Source: an uncultured Pelagibacteraceae bacterium
GTDB lineage: Bacteria; Pseudomonadota; Alphaproteobacteria; Pelagibacterales; Pelagibacteraceae
Direction: 5' to 3'
Assembly (NCBI GenBank): GCA_902583585.1
Contig: CACHWN010000005.1
Location: 23,248 to 87,247 of the forward strand
DNA: 64,000 bases
A model generated the notes under the pieces. The model did no database searches. It had not been told where the DNA came from and was given only the letters and a program-made list of their open reading frames with translations. Of the stretch, positions 735-64,000 are shown piece by piece. The position numbers were made by a program, and so were the translations under genes. Position 1 is the first letter of the stretch. The number at the start of each line of letters is the position of its first letter.

Positions 735-820
735 TGGTGCCCTCGGCCAGACTCGAACTGGCACTCCCAAAAGGGCAAGGATTTTAAGTCCTTTGTGTCT
801 ACCAATTTCACCACGAGGGC
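735..820 (-). tRNA. tRNA-Leu (UAA), CCA encoded
   Basis: Reverse complement GCCCTCG...GGTAGACAC...AAGGA-CTTAAAA-TCCTT...GTTCGAGTC...CGAGGGC-A-CCA; 7-bp acceptor stem pairs, anticodon TAA, long variable arm. Confidence 0.95.
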
Positions 821-905: not shown

Positions 906-922
906 GTCCAGTTTGAGTCCAG
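906..922 (+). repeat. Bipartite motif GTCCAG-N5-GTCCAG, left side of protease cargo
   Basis: GTCCAG at 906-911 and 917-922 (11-bp phase); matches 2129-2145 and the motifs of the right-end island. Confidence 0.75.
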
Positions 923-949
923 TCATCATTTATTTTATAGGAATATATT

Positions 950-2098
950 TTAATTAAATTCACTAAAAAAAGCTTTTCTGGAATTTTGAGCTGCAATTAA
1001 TTCTTTAACTTTTGCCACGGACATCCAGCATTCTAAATAAACTGTAGCATCTGTTACAAGTTTTCCAAGTTTTTCATTGTTTAATTCAAAAAATGGTTCA
1101 CTTGAAAATTTAACTTTATTTCCGCTAGCAAAGATTTTTAAAGTTGATGACTTAATACCAAAGTTAAAACTTTCTATTCCAGATTTTTTACCATAATGTG
1201 AAACTGCTACACCAACAACTCCACCATATTTATTAATTATTGGACCTCCACTATTCCCTTTGTTCATTGCTGCATCGGTTTGAAAATTTGATGAATTGTC
1301 CTGAAAGCCAACAAGCGCAGTAACACTTCCTTTTGAAGTTTTTATTGCTGAGCTCACTTTTTTTCCTAACGGGAATCCTGCAATAACTACTTCTTGAAGG
1401 AGAGCTACATCTTTTTTAGAAACAGGAAAAAATTGTTTTGGTCTTATATCAGTTTTTAAAATAGCTAAATCATTTGTTTTATCTTGAGCTACTAATTTTG
1501 CCTTATGTTGTTTGTCGTTGTAAGATAATTTAATATCTTTACACCCAGCTATGACATGATGATTAGTTATTACATGACCTTGTCGTGTAACAAAAAAACC
1601 ACTCCCGGATGAAGCAGCAATAATTTTACTATCATCTACAAAAATTTTAGGAGATGATCTCTGTTCCTTTTTTCCGGCTGTATTATTGTTACCTAGGTAA
1701 GTTGACCATCTTTTTGCTATTGAATTAGTAGATTTATACCTTCGAGTCCATGAATTACAATCAGCGTCTGACCGTTGCATTACTCTTCCATTTATTACAC
1801 CAACAAGGCAATATTTTTTTTTAGGACTAGAAGCATGTAAAATTATTTTTACTATTTTGCCCTCTTGTTTCCATGTGCAATCTTTTTCTCTATGAGTATA
1901 TAAATCCCACCATGATCGCTCACAAAAACCATTGGACATAAATTTCATTGTAATAACTCTATGTCCAGCCAACTCGCCGATAAGACCCCCTATTCCCTCG
2001 TCTCTCCATTCAGAATTAGTTACATCAATAATTTTTTCAGCATACGAAATACTGGGTAAAAAAAATATAAAACTCATGATTATTAATAAATTTCTCAT
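950..2098 (-). CDS. Exported trypsin-like (S1C/DegP-like) serine protease with a distinct N-terminal domain
   Basis: Signal peptide MRNLLIIMSFIFFLPSISYA; triad motifs VITNHHVIAGC (His), NDLAILKTD (Asp), GNSGGPI (Ser). No PDZ domain obvious. Confidence 0.85.
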   Translation of the reverse strand: MRNLLIIMSFIFFLPSISYAEKIIDVTNSEWRDEGIGGLIGELAGHRVITMKFMSNGFCERSWWDLYTHREKDCTWKQEGKIVKIILHASSPKKKYCLVGVINGRVMQRSDADCNSWTRRYKSTNSIAKRWSTYLGNNNTAGKKEQRSSPKIFVDDSKIIAASSGSGFFVTRQGHVITNHHVIAGCKDIKLSYNDKQHKAKLVAQDKTNDLAILKTDIRPKQFFPVSKKDVALLQEVVIAGFPLGKKVSSAIKTSKGSVTALVGFQDNSSNFQTDAAMNKGNSGGPIINKYGGVVGVAVSHYGKKSGIESFNFGIKSSTLKIFASGNKVKFSSEPFFELNNEKLGKLVTDATVYLECWMSVAKVKELIAAQNSRKAFFSEFN

Positions 2099-2128: not shown

Positions 2129-2145
2129 GTCCAGTCTGCGTCCAG
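2129..2145 (+). repeat. Bipartite motif GTCCAG-N5-GTCCAG, right side of protease cargo
   Basis: GTCCAG at 2129-2134 and 2140-2145; larger 23-bp block 2124-2146 matches 901-923 with 2 mismatches. Confidence 0.75.
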
Positions 2146-2221
2146 TTTGAACAAATTAATTATTGTCTAATTCTAATAATAATTGAGTAACAAATTTAAA
2201 AGTTAAAATTTTAATTGTTTT

Positions 2222-2247: not shown

Positions 2248-2270
2248 ATTGAATTTGTGAATCCCTAGGG

Positions 2271-2311
2271 TTTTAAGTCCTTTGTGTCTACCAATTTCAC
2301 CACGAGGGCAC
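2271..2311 (-). pseudogene. tRNA-Leu 5'-half fragment (direct repeat copy 2)
   Basis: Identical to 782-822; no 3' half of tRNA-Leu adjacent. Confidence 0.9.
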
Positions 2312-2379
2312 ATCAAGTTTATTTTATTATGTTTAGACATTTATATTATTATTTTAAATTTATAAAGTATATTCATTAT

Positions 2380-31149: not shown

Positions 31150-32160
31150 ATGAATAAAATACTTAAATTAATTTCAGCTGTATTTATTGCACTTTTCACA
31201 ACCATTTCAGTATCCAAAGCTGAAGTAAAAGTTGTTGCATCAATCAAGCCAATACATTCCTTAGTTAGCTACGTTATGGATGGTGTTGGAAAACCTGATG
31301 TAATTGTGGACGGCTATAATTCACCACATGGATTTAGCCTTAAACCTTCACATGCAAAAATGATTGAAAAAGCTGACTTAATTATTTGGGTTGGTGAAGA
31401 TTTAGAAGCATTCTTAGAAAAACCATTAAATACAATTGCTAAAAAGGCAGTGAATGTAGAAATAATGGACTTGAGTGGAATTAAAAAACTTGAGTTCAGA
31501 GAAAAAAATATATTTGAGGGTCATGATGATCACGGACATGGACATAAGGAGAAAAAACATGATGATCACGGACACGGTCATAAAGAAAAGAAACACGATG
31601 ATCATGGTCATAAAAAAGCTAAACATGATGACCACGGGCATGAGGGACATGCTCACGGTGAACACGATCCACATGTTTGGTTAGATCCAATGAATGCTAA
31701 AGTAATTATAAAAGAAATCGAAAAACAATTAGTTAAATTAGATCCAGGTAACGGCTCTAAATATAAATCTAACTCTAAAAAGGCTCAGACAGAATTAGAT
31801 AACTTAACTAAAAATATTAAAAAAGATCTCAAAGGCAATTTAAGGTTTGTAGTTTTCCATGATGCCTATCAATATTTTGAAAATAGATTTGGTATAAAAG
31901 TTCTTGGAGCTTTAACAGTAAATCCAGATGTTTTACCTGGAGCTGAACAATTATCTGAAATTAGGGAAGTAATCGAACATGAAAAAGTTAATTGTCTATT
32001 TTCAGAACCTCAGTTTAATCCTGCAATTATAAAATCAATAGCAAAAGATACTAAAATTAAAACTGGTGTCCTAGATCCTCTTGGTGCAACTTTAGACAAA
32101 GGTAAAAATATGTATTCTGATCTTTTGCAAAGTATGTACGCTTCCTTTAAAGGTTGTTAG
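31150..32160 (+). CDS. znuA: Zinc ABC transporter substrate-binding protein with His/Asp-rich loop
   Basis: Signal peptide; VASIKPIHSLVSYVMDGVGKPDVIVDGYNSPHGFSLKPS; HDDHGHGHKEKKHDDHGHGHKEKKHDDHGH repeats. Confidence 0.94.
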   Translation: MNKILKLISAVFIALFTTISVSKAEVKVVASIKPIHSLVSYVMDGVGKPDVIVDGYNSPHGFSLKPSHAKMIEKADLIIWVGEDLEAFLEKPLNTIAKKAVNVEIMDLSGIKKLEFREKNIFEGHDDHGHGHKEKKHDDHGHGHKEKKHDDHGHKKAKHDDHGHEGHAHGEHDPHVWLDPMNAKVIIKEIEKQLVKLDPGNGSKYKSNSKKAQTELDNLTKNIKKDLKGNLRFVVFHDAYQYFENRFGIKVLGALTVNPDVLPGAEQLSEIREVIEHEKVNCLFSEPQFNPAIIKSIAKDTKIKTGVLDPLGATLDKGKNMYSDLLQSMYASFKGC

Positions 32161-58510: not shown

Positions 58511-59536
58511 ATGAAAAAATTAATTGTTACTGGCGGAAATGGCTTTATAGGAAGTAACTTGGTAAATTTTCTTTTAAAAAAAAAATATTTTGTAATTAAT
58601 ATAGACAAGAATAAATATTCAAAAGGTTCGTATTTACTTAAAAATATAGATAATAAGAATTACAAATTTTTAAATTTAGACATTAATAATAAAAAAATAT
58701 TCAATATTTTTCAAAAGTATAAACCCGATGCAATATTTAATTTAGCTGCAGAAACGCACGTTGATAGATCAATAGACTCACCGAAGGAATTCATTTATTC
58801 AAATATTTTAGGAACTTTTAATATTTTGGAACAAATAAGGAAATACGAAAAAAAATTTAAAAGAAAATTAAAGCTGATACATATTTCAACTGATGAAGTT
58901 TATGGAGATTTGAATAAAGGTGAACGATCTACTGAAAATAGTGCTTATAAACCAAGTTCACCATACTCAGCAAGCAAAGCAAGTTCTGACCATTTAATAA
59001 AATCTTACTCCAGAACTTACAAATTACACGTAATGATTTCAAATTGTTGTAACAACTATGGACCTGCTCAATTTCCAGAAAAATTTATTCCTACATTAAT
59101 TTTTAATATTCTGAATAACAAACCCCTACCTATTTATGGTAGAGGCAAAAATTCTAGAGAGTGGATACATGTAGACGATCACTGTAATGGTTTGTTCAAA
59201 ATCTATAAAAGTGGAAAAATAGGTGAAAGTTACAACATTGGATCTGGAAATAATATAAATAATCTTAATTTAACCAAATTCTTACTAAAGATTATCAAAA
59301 GTAAAAAAATTTACATTGGAAAAAAAGTAAAAATAAAATTTGTTAAAGATAGGCCGGGTCATGACTTTAGATATGCTCTTAATAGTAATAAAATACAAAA
59401 AAATCTCAAGTGGTATCCAAATATGAAATTTTCTTTCGGTTTGGAGAAAACTATAGATTGGTATTTAAATAATTATAAATTTTTTAGTTATTTTTCGAAA
59501 AAAAAATTTTTTAAAAGATTGGGCTTAAGTTTATGA
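58511..59536 (+). CDS. rmlB: dTDP-glucose 4,6-dehydratase
   Basis: VTGGNGFIGSNLVNFLL; AAETHVDRSIDSPKEFI; STDEVYGDL; SNCCNNYGPAQFPEKFIP. Confidence 0.93.
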   Translation: MKKLIVTGGNGFIGSNLVNFLLKKKYFVINIDKNKYSKGSYLLKNIDNKNYKFLNLDINNKKIFNIFQKYKPDAIFNLAAETHVDRSIDSPKEFIYSNILGTFNILEQIRKYEKKFKRKLKLIHISTDEVYGDLNKGERSTENSAYKPSSPYSASKASSDHLIKSYSRTYKLHVMISNCCNNYGPAQFPEKFIPTLIFNILNNKPLPIYGRGKNSREWIHVDDHCNGLFKIYKSGKIGESYNIGSGNNINNLNLTKFLLKIIKSKKIYIGKKVKIKFVKDRPGHDFRYALNSNKIQKNLKWYPNMKFSFGLEKTIDWYLNNYKFFSYFSKKKFFKRLGLSL

Positions 59537-60402
59537 TAAAAAAAGGTATAATATTAGCTGGTGGGATGGGTACCAGAATGAGTCCACTAACTAAAGCCGT
59601 TAACAAACAACTCTTGCCACTTTATGATAAGCCTTTAATATTTTATCCGCTATCAATATTGATGTTAGCTGGGATAAAGCATGTATTAATTATTGTTAAT
59701 AAAGGACAACTAAACCAGTTTAGGAAAATTCTTCCGGAAAAAAATAATATTGGTTTAAAAATTGAGTACAAAGAACAACTAAAACCAGCCGGACTTCCAC
59801 AAGCGTTCACGATTGGAGAAAAATTCATTGGTAGAGATAATGTTGCACTAATTTTGGGTGATAATTTCTTTTACGGACAAAGTCTTACAAAAATTTTAAA
59901 AAAAAACGCCTCTTTTAAAAAAGGAGCAAAAATTTTTGTTTATCCTGTTAAAAACGCTCAACAATATGGAGTAGCTACTTTAAACAAAAATAAGAAAATA
60001 CTTAAACTAGATGAGAAACCAAAGAAACCAAAATCAAATTTAGCTGTGACTGGTCTCTATTTTTTTGACAACAATGTAGTTAGTTTTTCAAAAAACTTAA
60101 AACCCTCATCTAGGGGAGAATTAGAAATAATTGATCTTTTAAAAATTTATCTTAAAAGGAAAAAATTATCAGCAGAGTTTATAGGACGAGGTGGCGCATG
60201 GCTTGATACAGGAAATGTAAAAGATTACTATGATGCGTGTAATTTTGTATCTGCTATTGAAAATAGACAAGGATTAAAAATAGCATGTTTAGAGGAAATT
60301 TCTTTAAAAAATAAATGGATAAATAGTAATAATATATTAGATGCTATCTCGTTTTATGGTAATTGTGAATATTCAAAATATCTTAAATCACTAATAAATT
60401 AA
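59533..60402 (+). CDS. rmlA: Glucose-1-phosphate thymidylyltransferase
   Basis: GIILAGGMGTRMSPLTKAVNKQLLPLYDKPLIFYPLS; GRGGAWLDTGNVKDYYDA. Confidence 0.95.
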   Translation: MIKKGIILAGGMGTRMSPLTKAVNKQLLPLYDKPLIFYPLSILMLAGIKHVLIIVNKGQLNQFRKILPEKNNIGLKIEYKEQLKPAGLPQAFTIGEKFIGRDNVALILGDNFFYGQSLTKILKKNASFKKGAKIFVYPVKNAQQYGVATLNKNKKILKLDEKPKKPKSNLAVTGLYFFDNNVVSFSKNLKPSSRGELEIIDLLKIYLKRKKLSAEFIGRGGAWLDTGNVKDYYDACNFVSAIENRQGLKIACLEEISLKNKWINSNNILDAISFYGNCEYSKYLKSLIN

Positions 60403-61109
60403 TGGTGAAAATTTTGGTAACAGGATCAGACGGAAGATTTGGAAAAATATTAAGAAAAGTTAAAACTAGATATAAGTTTATTTTTAAAGATAAAAAAGAA
60501 TTAAATATACTTTCTCAAAAATCTATTGTTCAAAATATAAAAAAATTCAAACCTATTTATATTCTTCATCTAGCCGGTCTATCAAGACCAATGAAATTAC
60601 ATGATACTAATATATCAAAAAGTATCGATTTAAATATAATAGGTACATGTAACTTAGTTAAGGAAGCTTCAAAAGAAAATATAAAATTTATCTATTTGTC
60701 TACTAATTATGTTTATGAAGGAAATAAAGGAAATTATAAAGAAACAGACTCATTAAAACCTTGGAATAATTATGCATGGTCAAAATTAGGTGGCGAGTGT
60801 GCAGCTCAAATGTACAAAAATTCACTTATAGTAAGAATGTGTATGACTGAGAAACCTTTCATTCATAAAAAAGCTTATGCAAATGTAAAGTCAAATTTTA
60901 TATTTCAGGAGGAAGCGGCAAAATTGCTTATAAAAATTATAAAAAGAAAAGGGATAATTAATTTAGGTGGCCCGAGTCAAAGTATTTATAATTTTGCAAA
61001 AAAATATAATAAAAAGATTAAAAAAATATTTTCTAAAAAAGAATTTCCAAAAAGAACTGATATGAATTTGAGTAAATTGAAAAGTATAATAAAGCATGAA
61101 AATAATTAA
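60402..61109 (+). CDS. RmlD-like sugar nucleotide reductase (short)
   Basis: ILVTGSDGRFGKIL; HLAGLSRPMKLH; STNYVYEGNKGNYKETD; NYAWSKLGGE; 235 aa. Confidence 0.75.
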   Translation: MVKILVTGSDGRFGKILRKVKTRYKFIFKDKKELNILSQKSIVQNIKKFKPIYILHLAGLSRPMKLHDTNISKSIDLNIIGTCNLVKEASKENIKFIYLSTNYVYEGNKGNYKETDSLKPWNNYAWSKLGGECAAQMYKNSLIVRMCMTEKPFIHKKAYANVKSNFIFQEEAAKLLIKIIKRKGIINLGGPSQSIYNFAKKYNKKIKKIFSKKEFPKRTDMNLSKLKSIIKHENN

Positions 61110-61629
61110 GACAAAATTTAAAGATCTAATAATTGTTAAACAAAAAAATAATACCGATAAGAGAGGTTCATTAAGAGAAACTTTTAATAACAAAATTTTA
61201 AAGAAGAAATTTGTTTTTGAGTACTGTACTACATCGAAAAAAAACGTCTTGAGAGGTTTTCATTTTCAAACAAAATTTAAACAATCTAAATACGTTAATG
61301 TAATTAAAGGAAAAATACTTGATGCTGTTATCGATCTCAGAAAAAATTCAAAAACATTTGGAAAAATTTTTAAAATTGTTTTATCGCAAAAAAATGCCTT
61401 AAGTTTATTTGTACCTGCAGGGTTTGCTCATGCTTATTACAGTATTGAAAAAGAAAATATAATTTATTACAAGTTAGATAATTACTACTCACCTAAATTT
61501 GAAGACGGTATCATTTATAATGACAAATCTTTAAAGATTAAGTGGCCAGACAGTAAAATAATTATCTCAAAAAAAGATAAAAATTTACTATCATTTAAAG
61601 AATTTAAAAGAAAATATAAAGCCCTTTAA
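61096..61629 (+). CDS. rmlC: dTDP-4-dehydrorhamnose 3,5-epimerase
   Basis: DKRGSLRETFN; LRGFHFQTKFKQSKYVNVIKGKILDAVIDLRKNSKTFGK; FVPAGFAHAYYSI. Confidence 0.9.
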   Translation: MKIIKTKFKDLIIVKQKNNTDKRGSLRETFNNKILKKKFVFEYCTTSKKNVLRGFHFQTKFKQSKYVNVIKGKILDAVIDLRKNSKTFGKIFKIVLSQKNALSLFVPAGFAHAYYSIEKENIIYYKLDNYYSPKFEDGIIYNDKSLKIKWPDSKIIISKKDKNLLSFKEFKRKYKAL

Positions 61630-62432
61630 TCTAAAAAACTAATGTCAGCAAATTTAATTGGAAGAGTTGAAAACTTTGTATATTTTCTAAACCAATAAGA
61701 AAGATATCTCTCAGCTAAAAATCCATATATTCTTTGTAATCCGTAACCCGAAAGGTCAAATCCAAATTCTTTTTCACATCTCTCAAGCCATGGAAAAACT
61801 GACTCATAGTAATTTCTTAAAATATTTTCTGATTTACAAATAAACATATTATGTGGACTAAATGATACTTCAGAATTCACATAATCTTTGAAATCAATTC
61901 TATCTTTGATATCAAGTAGATTAATCGCTTTTTCTAAATTTCCCTCTCCATGCATCATATCAAAATGAAATTTAATATTTCTTTTTTTGCTATCAAAAAA
62001 TAAGCTTGGTTTTTGAATCATTTTTTTAAAGTTTCGTTTTAAGAATTTCGATAATTTAAATTCATTTACATAAAATGCATTTCCTAAAATACTTTCATAA
62101 TTCTCATAATTTTTTGGAATATTTTTAATCAGATTTTGACTTAATTGATTTAAATTAATAATTTTTTCATTTTTTTCATTTATAACCCAAAATTTTCTAT
62201 ACTGGCAGAAACCTATCCAATCATTTTTTAAATCAAGACTATTATTTTTCCATAACCAAAAATGAAAGGAGTACTCTCCGTAATAAGGATTTTTTTTTGT
62301 TATATTGTATCCTGTGTTATCTCTTAAAAAATTCTCATTTTTGATTTTAGGACCTAGTCCAACAGGATAATAGCCAAAATCTTTTATCTTTTGATAGTGG
62401 TTATTATCTAATGTAATACAAAACATTTTCAT
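61626..62432 (-). CDS. DUF4422-like glycosyltransferase
   Basis: KKNPYYGEYSFHFWLWKNN...DWIGFCQYRKFWV. Confidence 0.7.
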   Translation of the reverse strand: MKMFCITLDNNHYQKIKDFGYYPVGLGPKIKNENFLRDNTGYNITKKNPYYGEYSFHFWLWKNNSLDLKNDWIGFCQYRKFWVINEKNEKIINLNQLSQNLIKNIPKNYENYESILGNAFYVNEFKLSKFLKRNFKKMIQKPSLFFDSKKRNIKFHFDMMHGEGNLEKAINLLDIKDRIDFKDYVNSEVSFSPHNMFICKSENILRNYYESVFPWLERCEKEFGFDLSGYGLQRIYGFLAERYLSYWFRKYTKFSTLPIKFADISFLD

Positions 62433-62433
62433 A

Positions 62434-63114
62434 TTAAAGCCTAAAAATTTTATTTATATCATTATGATTTATTAAATTCATAAATTTTTTATGGTGATTG
62501 AAGTAGTCAGAAAATTTTAAACTTTTAAAATTATTTTCTTCTAATTTAAGTATATTTGAGTTTTTTCTTTTAAAGATAATTCCAATTCCATGGTCTGCGA
62601 TACAAGTGTATGTGTCAGCATAATCATATGTTCTTGCGCGCACAATTGCTTTCCAAACGTCTCCGTTCCAATGACCATAAATTCTAGGAACAACTTGATT
62701 CCAAATTTTTTTGGGTAAACAGTCGTGAACAAATATTGCCCCGTGCTCTTTTATTATTCTAAGTGAATTATCAATATCTTTTATAGTTTGTTCATAAGTG
62801 TGTAATCCATCTAGAAAAATTAAGTCAAATGACTCTTTATTTTTTTGAAAAAATTGATCACTTGTCATTCTTAATGTGCCTCCTCTTTCAGGGTCTACGC
62901 CAACTTTATGGTCTATAACAATTTTCGAAAAATTCTCATTTCGATCGCACCCTATCTCAAGATAGGTTTTATAATTTCTTGTATTAATTATATTTTGAAG
63001 TATCTCAATTCTAGATGGAGATTTGCTCCAATCATAATTCAATCTTTTGTAAAATTTTTCTCCATAAAAGTAATATAAAAGTCTTTTTAAGAAAAATTTG
63101 TATTTTTGTTTCAT
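62434..63114 (-). CDS. Class I SAM-dependent methyltransferase
   Basis: YLEIGCDRNENFSKI; FDLIFLDGLHTYEQTIKDIDNSLRII; IFVHDCLP. Confidence 0.85.
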   Translation of the reverse strand: MKQKYKFFLKRLLYYFYGEKFYKRLNYDWSKSPSRIEILQNIINTRNYKTYLEIGCDRNENFSKIVIDHKVGVDPERGGTLRMTSDQFFQKNKESFDLIFLDGLHTYEQTIKDIDNSLRIIKEHGAIFVHDCLPKKIWNQVVPRIYGHWNGDVWKAIVRARTYDYADTYTCIADHGIGIIFKRKNSNILKLEENNFKSLKFSDYFNHHKKFMNLINHNDINKIFRL

Positions 63115-63120
63115 TTAAAA

Positions 63121-63166
63121 TGGTAGCGAGGGGCGGATTCGAACCGCCGACCCCAGGCTTATGAGT
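63121..63166 (-). pseudogene. tRNA(CAT) 3'-portion fragment (direct repeat copy 1)
   Basis: Reverse complement ACTCATAAGCCTGGGGTCGGCGGTTCGAATCCGCCCCTCGCTACCA; no upstream AGCGAGG to form the acceptor stem. Confidence 0.8.
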
Positions 63167-63251
63167 CCTGGCCAGCAACCTCTACCCTTCACTTCTTAAC
63201 GTTATACAATACTTTTTTTGCAACCTAAAACTATATTTTGCTTCTGAGTGA

Positions 63252-63268
63252 GTCCAATTTGTGACCAG
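63252..63268 (+). repeat. Bipartite motif GTCCAA-N5-GACCAG, left side of cargo ORF
   Basis: Half-sites 63252-63257 and 63263-63268, 11-bp phase; same consensus as the tRNA-Leu island. Confidence 0.7.
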
Positions 63269-63280
63269 AATATTGTATGA

Positions 63281-63883
63281 TTGTTTATGATGAATACTAA
63301 GAAGTATAAATTAAAAGAAGTGCTCAATATTTCTGATGATAACAATTTAGTCTGTTTCACAAATTTAACTTCGTTAAATAATAATAATAAATTTAATAAA
63401 ATTATTGCAAGTTCAATTATAGGGTTATCGGAAAGTTGCGGTTATTGGTCGGCCTGTCATAAACTAGATAAAGATGTTTTTATAATTGATAATGATCAAG
63501 ATAATTCACAACCGAATATTTACTTAGTATATAAAGAAAAAAAATTTATTGGTGTTTATATCCATTGTGGATTGTTTGCTGAAGATTTTGAGGTGCTTCT
63601 TAAAAATAATAAATACCCTCCTGAACATAGAATTAATATTAATGATCAAAAATTTTTAATTTTCAGAACTCCTGATAATGAATTAAATCCTATTAATAAG
63701 AAAAAAATTAAAAAAGAAAGTTTAATTAAGGATTTTGTCGAAGAAAGAACTAATAATAATAAATTTTTAGAATTAAATGTCCATAAAGGAAAATACAATA
63801 TTTATACTTTTAATTCAGCAATAGACGGAGCGGGTGACGCAGAGGTAGCTGGACATTTCATTGAATTAAAAAAAATTGACTAG
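63281..63883 (+). CDS. Hypothetical cargo protein, 200 aa
   Basis: Open frame filling the island between the two motif pairs; no recognised family, no signal peptide. Confidence 0.75.
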   Translation: MFMMNTKKYKLKEVLNISDDNNLVCFTNLTSLNNNNKFNKIIASSIIGLSESCGYWSACHKLDKDVFIIDNDQDNSQPNIYLVYKEKKFIGVYIHCGLFAEDFEVLLKNNKYPPEHRININDQKFLIFRTPDNELNPINKKKIKKESLIKDFVEERTNNNKFLELNVHKGKYNIYTFNSAIDGAGDAEVAGHFIELKKID

Positions 63884-63892
63884 TTTCTGTGT

Positions 63893-63909
63893 GACCAGTT
63901 TGTGACCAA
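63893..63909 (+). repeat. Bipartite motif GACCAG-N5-GACCAA, right side of cargo ORF
   Basis: Half-sites 63893-63898 and 63904-63909, 11-bp phase. Confidence 0.7.
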
Positions 63910-63954
63910 ATAAATATTTTTGGTTGTATGAAAATAAATTAACGTTGATTTTAT

Positions 63955-64000
63955 TGGTAGCGAGGGGCGGATTCGAACCGCCGACCCCAGGCTTATGAGT
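63955..64000 (-). tRNA. tRNA-Met or tRNA-Ile2 (CAT), 5' end beyond window
   Basis: CCA end, acceptor 3' strand CCTCGCT, T-arm GGCGG-TTCGAAT-CCGCC, anticodon CAT visible; identical to 63121-63166. Confidence 0.75.

Follow-up and report, generated by a model that had tools for sequence, protein, structure and literature searches.

At one end of the window, the whole stretch of 64,000 nucleotides analysed here (contig positions 23248-87247 of 87247), a mini-island of about 0.8 kb lies between two copies of the 3' part of tRNA-Met(CAT). Our comparison across related genomes makes it probable that this island belongs to a group of non-autonomous integrative mini-elements that are moved in trans by the tyrosine integrase of another element. 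We infer both the movement in trans and the identity of the integrase that would perform it. In each mini-element, the 3' part of tRNA-Met would serve as the attachment core, and one cargo gene would lie between two ends, about 70 bp long on the left and about 120 bp on the right, each of them with a pair of putative integrase arm-type sites. We suggest that a tyrosine integrase from a phage satellite or a phage with matching sites excises and inserts the mini-element: strand exchange within or next to CTCATAA, the heptamer of the anticodon loop, would restore the tRNA on one side and leave a 3' fragment on the other, and repeated insertion at the restored tRNA would give rise to stacked arrays of islands. 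The initial annotation of the locus had described an integrase-less island at a tRNA 3' end that is part of a family, a reading that the related genomes support.

The two tRNA-Met copies form an exact direct repeat of 46 bp and proved to be identical on re-check (Table 1). The initial annotation had suggested that the repeat may be longer. Homology of the first copy to the full tRNA runs on to about position 63170, and the contig stops at position 64000, inside the second, proximal copy. Neither copy was called as a tRNA by ARAGORN or Rfam, the 5' half being absent from the first and the second being truncated where the contig stops. Since the contig ends inside the proximal copy, we infer a full tRNA-Met there only from relatives with the same island end, in which the second copy is a full tRNA-Met. 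The tRNA 5' half was not found elsewhere in the assembly that contains the window (G000, 83% complete). The interval between the copies is occupied by a single ORF of 200 amino acids, which was annotated with a TTG start codon, although one of two nearby ATG codons is the more likely start. Apart from this repeat, those of 40-48 bp in the window comprise a tRNA-Leu pair (96% identical) and matches of only 71-76%. A 36-bp tandem repeat in two copies that are 86% alike (CATGATGATCACGGACATGGACATAAGGAGAAAAAA) is located at 31522-31593. Beside the island, surface-polysaccharide-type genes (by eye; DUF4422 by Pfam) occupy positions 59533-62432, and similar genes also follow the tRNA in several relatives.

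Table 1. Features of the two mini-islands in the window (positions in the window).
Feature	Position	Strand	Remark
tRNA-Leu(TAA), target of second mini-island	735..820	-	
Arm pair GTCCAGTTTGAGTCCAGT of tRNA-Leu island	906..923	+	
Cargo of tRNA-Leu island: trypsin-like peptidase (PF13365)	950..2098	-	
Second arm pair GTCCAGTCTGCGTCCAGT of tRNA-Leu island	2129..2146	+	
Copy of tRNA-Leu 5' half	2267..2314	-	
Chromosomal methyltransferase gene beside the 3' fragment	62434..63114	-	orthologues directly follow intact tRNA-Met in empty sites
tRNA-Met(CAT) 3' fragment, distal att copy	63121..63170	-	63121-63166 is the repeated 46 bp
Conserved right end of island, including arm pair	63171..63290	-	
Right-end motif TATTGTATAACGTTAAGAAGTGAAGGG	63185..63211	-	common to islands in 14 genus genomes
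Putative right arm pair GGTCACAAATTGGACTCACTCAG, 11-bp period	63244..63266	-	
Cargo ORF, 200 aa, no known family	63281..63883	+	likely start ATG 63287 or 63290
Putative left arm pair GGTCACAAACTGGTCACACAG, 11-bp period	63887..63907	-	
Conserved left end of island	63888..63953	-	
Proximal tRNA-Met(CAT) 3' sequence, cut by contig end	63955..64000	-	repeated 46 bp; full tRNA probable from relatives

Islands of this kind recur throughout the genus. The tRNA 3' end was present in 68 of 101 genus genomes scanned, mostly in a single copy, and seven genomes, the window's own included, carry it twice on one contig, with the copies 0.8-2.4 kb apart. All six relatives inspected in full have an intact tRNA-Met followed by the island and then the 3' fragment, and this order, with the fragment distal to the tRNA, is the one that the initial annotation had attributed to integration at the tRNA 3' end. 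The empty site is preserved in three relatives (L012, L024, L030), in which an orthologue of the methyltransferase gene (71-74% identical) lies 6 bp beyond a single, intact tRNA, and in the window this gene lies at the same 6-bp distance from the 3' fragment. The hallmarks of tRNA genomic islands are all found among the relatives: the island is bordered by a full tRNA and, at its opposite end, by a 3' fragment, and empty sites exist. The right-end motif was detected in 14 of 169 genus genomes, at tRNA-Met in 13 of these and beside the tmRNA in G091. Altogether, 18 integrase-less tRNA-Met islands of about 0.8-2.5 kb each, one more found on G383 contig 24 being counted in, are distributed over 13 genus genomes and have common ends, which bears out the view that the locus represents a family and not an accident. 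Tandem arrays of at least two islands in a row are present in G075, G383 and G389, and none in the window itself. A tandem duplication of two complete tRNAs is ruled out as the source of the repeat: the distal copy has no 5' half, and some islands are inserted at a site outside tRNA genes (see below). The array of G091 (L069 6900-10500, reverse strand, 3' of the tmRNA) has a related right end and a repeated core (GGGCACCTGGCAACAGAACGCCCC); one of its cargo genes weakly matches type IV restriction enzymes, and the array gives weak integrase-like tblastn matches (best E=0.017).

Between the conserved ends, the cargo is mostly unrelated, and some islands are mosaics with the left cargo in common and a different right cargo. 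Among ten tRNA-Met cargo proteins compared with Pfam, four had no family and one had only a sub-threshold match; the cargo includes MrcB_N proteins in G382 (E=1e-47) and in G095, there together with a NucS_C nuclease domain, a photolyase (G383) and an FkbM methyltransferase (G075). The 200-aa protein of the window is indeed of no known family: it has no match in Pfam, PADLOC, phage or viral-contig sequences and a single weak match in PHROG (E=0.006) to a group without assigned function, and an AlphaFold model built on an alignment of two sequences reached a pLDDT of 33. A conserved core gene at this locus is ruled out, since an order-wide sample gave no match to the gene in its other 296 genomes. 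One relative, G075, has it at a different position, in the second unit of its array, with one amino-acid change: the cargo genes of G000 and G075 are about 99.5% identical (about 3 nucleotide differences), whereas nearly 8 kb of flanking sequence are 77.7% identical. Swaps of cargo at tRNA-Met, another expectation of the initial annotation, are thus found among the relatives.

This exchange bears on the idea that the islands are decayed remnants of integrase-bearing elements that have lost their genes and are now immobile. The cognate integrase is absent from most island-bearing genomes, and some distal 3' copies as well as one right end (that of the second unit in G075) are degraded, as decay would have it; the tRNA-Met islands, however, contain no remnants of integrase, Rep or TerS genes, their cargo ORFs cover 75-91% of each island, and both arm pairs have been retained. 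Moreover, near-identical cargo in diverged hosts, together with three insertions at a secondary site, points to movement as mini-islands. We therefore consider decay unlikely.

The three secondary-site insertions were found in G568, G564 and G323 (another genus), where islands are flanked by two genes, one of 123 aa and one of 482-492 aa; the empty site, present in many relatives, reads GTAGATCT-TTC-TTAGATCTAC. The left junction is GTAGATCT-CTCATAA-GCCTGGGG, the right junction in G568 is CCAGGACTC-TT-GGATCTAC, and the 123-aa gene retains its stop codon after insertion. Junctions of this kind, in short common sequence, fit site-specific recombination rather than tRNA duplication. They locate the exchange within or next to CTCATAA, the anticodon loop. 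Such precise junctions outside tRNA genes also argue against an origin of the repeats by homologous recombination or tRNA duplication, with cargo exchanged through the common ends and without any integrase, and so do the fragments that lack the tRNA 5' half and the arms that match the layout at integrase genes. This explanation is very improbable in our view, even though the mosaic islands have long common ends that recombination could use and flanking regions are reported to recombine in SAR11 (PMC12374537). Homologous exchange of cargo may nevertheless occur after integration.

The right ends of the islands comprise 112-142 bp and are about 82-99% alike, with a lower value for the decayed second unit of G075; the left ends comprise 66-72 bp, and those of the main type agree with one another to about 75-96%, a second type being present in three islands and a type of its own in G134. 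At each end, two half-sites recur with a period of 11 bp; they were assigned by hand to the classes GTCACA, GGCACA and GGTCCA. The class was the same at both ends in 12 of 13 islands (label shuffle p=0.0003; relatedness not modelled), and the agreement was 7 of 8 after related islands had been collapsed by hand (p=0.018). In G078, the arms of the left and right end differ. We regard the paired motifs as putative integrase-binding arm sites. At the other end of the window, the tRNA-Leu island (735-2314) carries the tandem arm motif GTCCAGT at both ends. The initial annotation had counted two such islands in the window. The tRNA-Leu island agrees in its layout with the one at tRNA-Met but duplicates the 5' half of its tRNA; it therefore seems to be an element of this kind that has a different specificity. 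A further mini-island, with the arm GGCACAAATCCGACACACTCAG and a 295-aa ORF that by eye resembles phytanoyl-CoA dioxygenase, lies at tRNA-Phe in G508 (L217 2235-3934).

The arm layout of the mini-island ends also recurs in the related SAR11 elements that sit at tRNAs and encode an integrase; in most of these it lies just in front of the integrase gene. In G010, an integrase-bearing element with the arm GGCACAAATCCGGCACACTCAG occupies the same tRNA-Met and duplicates the tRNA 5' half; it was the sole integrase-bearing match among the genomes covered by an arm-pattern scan. Those relatives of the G010 integrase that were aligned are 28-42% identical. Nearly all relatives are encoded next to a tRNA, a tmRNA or a tRNA fragment, and 14 of 18 have a perfect 7-mer repeat with a spacing of 10-12 bp just upstream of the start codon, as compared to 1.0% of random windows and 3.0% of the regions upstream of other ORFs at the same loci. 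The motif returns at the far end of the element in at least seven cases (G466, G136, G191, G330, G331 and G367 by script, G010 by eye). No relative of the G010 integrase was confirmed in viral contigs, and a scan of genome contigs returned only G010 itself (single-cell genome AG-914-J05). An integrase-bearing element stands beside a mini-island at tRNA-fMet in G367 (L156 9666-17450): the tRNA is followed by a satellite-like element with an integrase, an AAA_25 protein and a terminase small subunit (PF03592, E=1.7e-9). Next comes an island of 1.3 kb that lacks an integrase and has two ORFs resembling membrane proteins, and finally a third 3' copy and the start of another island. Both displaced copies share the core flank GGCAGAAAGGTACGTA, and GACACA arms are present throughout; a cognate integrase element was found for this tandem. 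An integrase-bearing element that combines GTCACA arms with the right end of the window's tRNA-Met island was found neither in the 169 genus genomes nor in samples of 387-397 genomes drawn from the whole family; when viral contigs were searched for exact copies of the right end, the arm or the 46-bp core, there was no match, and G000 (83% complete) has no PF00589 protein. Integrase-bearing elements that have GTCACA arms and measure about 3 kb are located at tRNA-Met in G349 and G448 (L159, L160) and beside a tRNA-Met-like fragment in G126 (L157).

Among the island carriers, longer, non-Xer-like tyrosine recombinases were found only in G059 and G383, at other tRNAs, the remaining ones being called Xer by length alone (308-327 aa; the 251-aa frame of G012 included) in genomes that are mostly incomplete. 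Movement of the islands by a recombinase that the chromosome itself encodes, for example XerC/XerD, is the least credible explanation: most genomes do have recombinases of Xer length and most island carriers have no other, but insertion is directed at the anticodon loop of a tRNA, and the paired arm motifs resemble those at phage-type integrase genes.

VEIMEs and tycheposons are small marine phage satellites. The PICMIs are likewise small elements of marine bacteria (PMC10803314), and the SAR11 integrase-bearing elements look like members of this group. The mini-islands differ in that they lack integrase, AAA_25 and TerS genes and consist of ends and cargo only; none of the integrase, replication or packaging genes expected of a phage satellite was seen in the tRNA-Met mini-islands, whereas the elements of G010 and G367 do have such genes. 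The closest known elements are the cis-mobilizable elements (CIMEs), for example the ssrA islands of Dehalococcoides without an integration module. These are arranged in tandem, bounded by copies of the 3' end of the target RNA gene, devoid of an integrase and proposed to depend on other elements for their movement (McMurdie 2011, PMC3146451). The SAR11 islands share the tandem arrangement, the 3'-end copies as borders and the lack of an integrase; they are, however, much smaller (about 0.8-2.5 kb), insert at secondary sites and carry tyrosine-integrase-type arm motifs at their ends, whereas the Dehalococcoides islands depend on a serine recombinase. As in CIMEs, tandem accretion is seen (G075, G383 and G389, as well as G367 with its integrase-bearing element), and the tRNA-Met islands have no integrase, as the initial annotation had stated, and no transfer gene. 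Att-like repeats and arms are present; a cognate integrase element was found for the G367 tandem but not for the tRNA-Met family. A difference is that mobility is proposed to occur in trans and not by accretion alone. CALIN arrays and MITEs (reviewed in PMC11389934) are also non-autonomous, with common ends and an enzyme encoded elsewhere, but the SAR11 core is tRNA sequence with a phage-integrase arm layout, and neither an integron integrase nor a transposase was seen. The evidence speaks more strongly for the mode of working, a cassette moved by a tyrosine integrase that it borrows, than for placement in one of the named families, and we would best describe the islands as a novel form of cis-mobilizable or hitcher element that is non-autonomous, arm-bearing and tandem-stacking.

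The genomes of SAR11 bacteria are streamlined, and yet accessory genes are exchanged. Units of about 1 kb that need only a borrowed integrase would provide a very cheap route of transfer for small genes, including the restriction-like nucleases that are the cargo of some islands. It is tempting to go further and to propose, as a tentative idea that we hold to be somewhat less probable than its opposite, that SAR11 hosts a dedicated tyrosine-integrase cassette system, with core and arm sites only, arm classes matched to satellite integrases, stacking at tRNAs and parasitism of phage satellites. If this is true, the cassettes form a third tier below phage and satellite. With a defined core, arms, empty sites and candidate integrases, trans-mobilisation by satellite integrases is directly testable.
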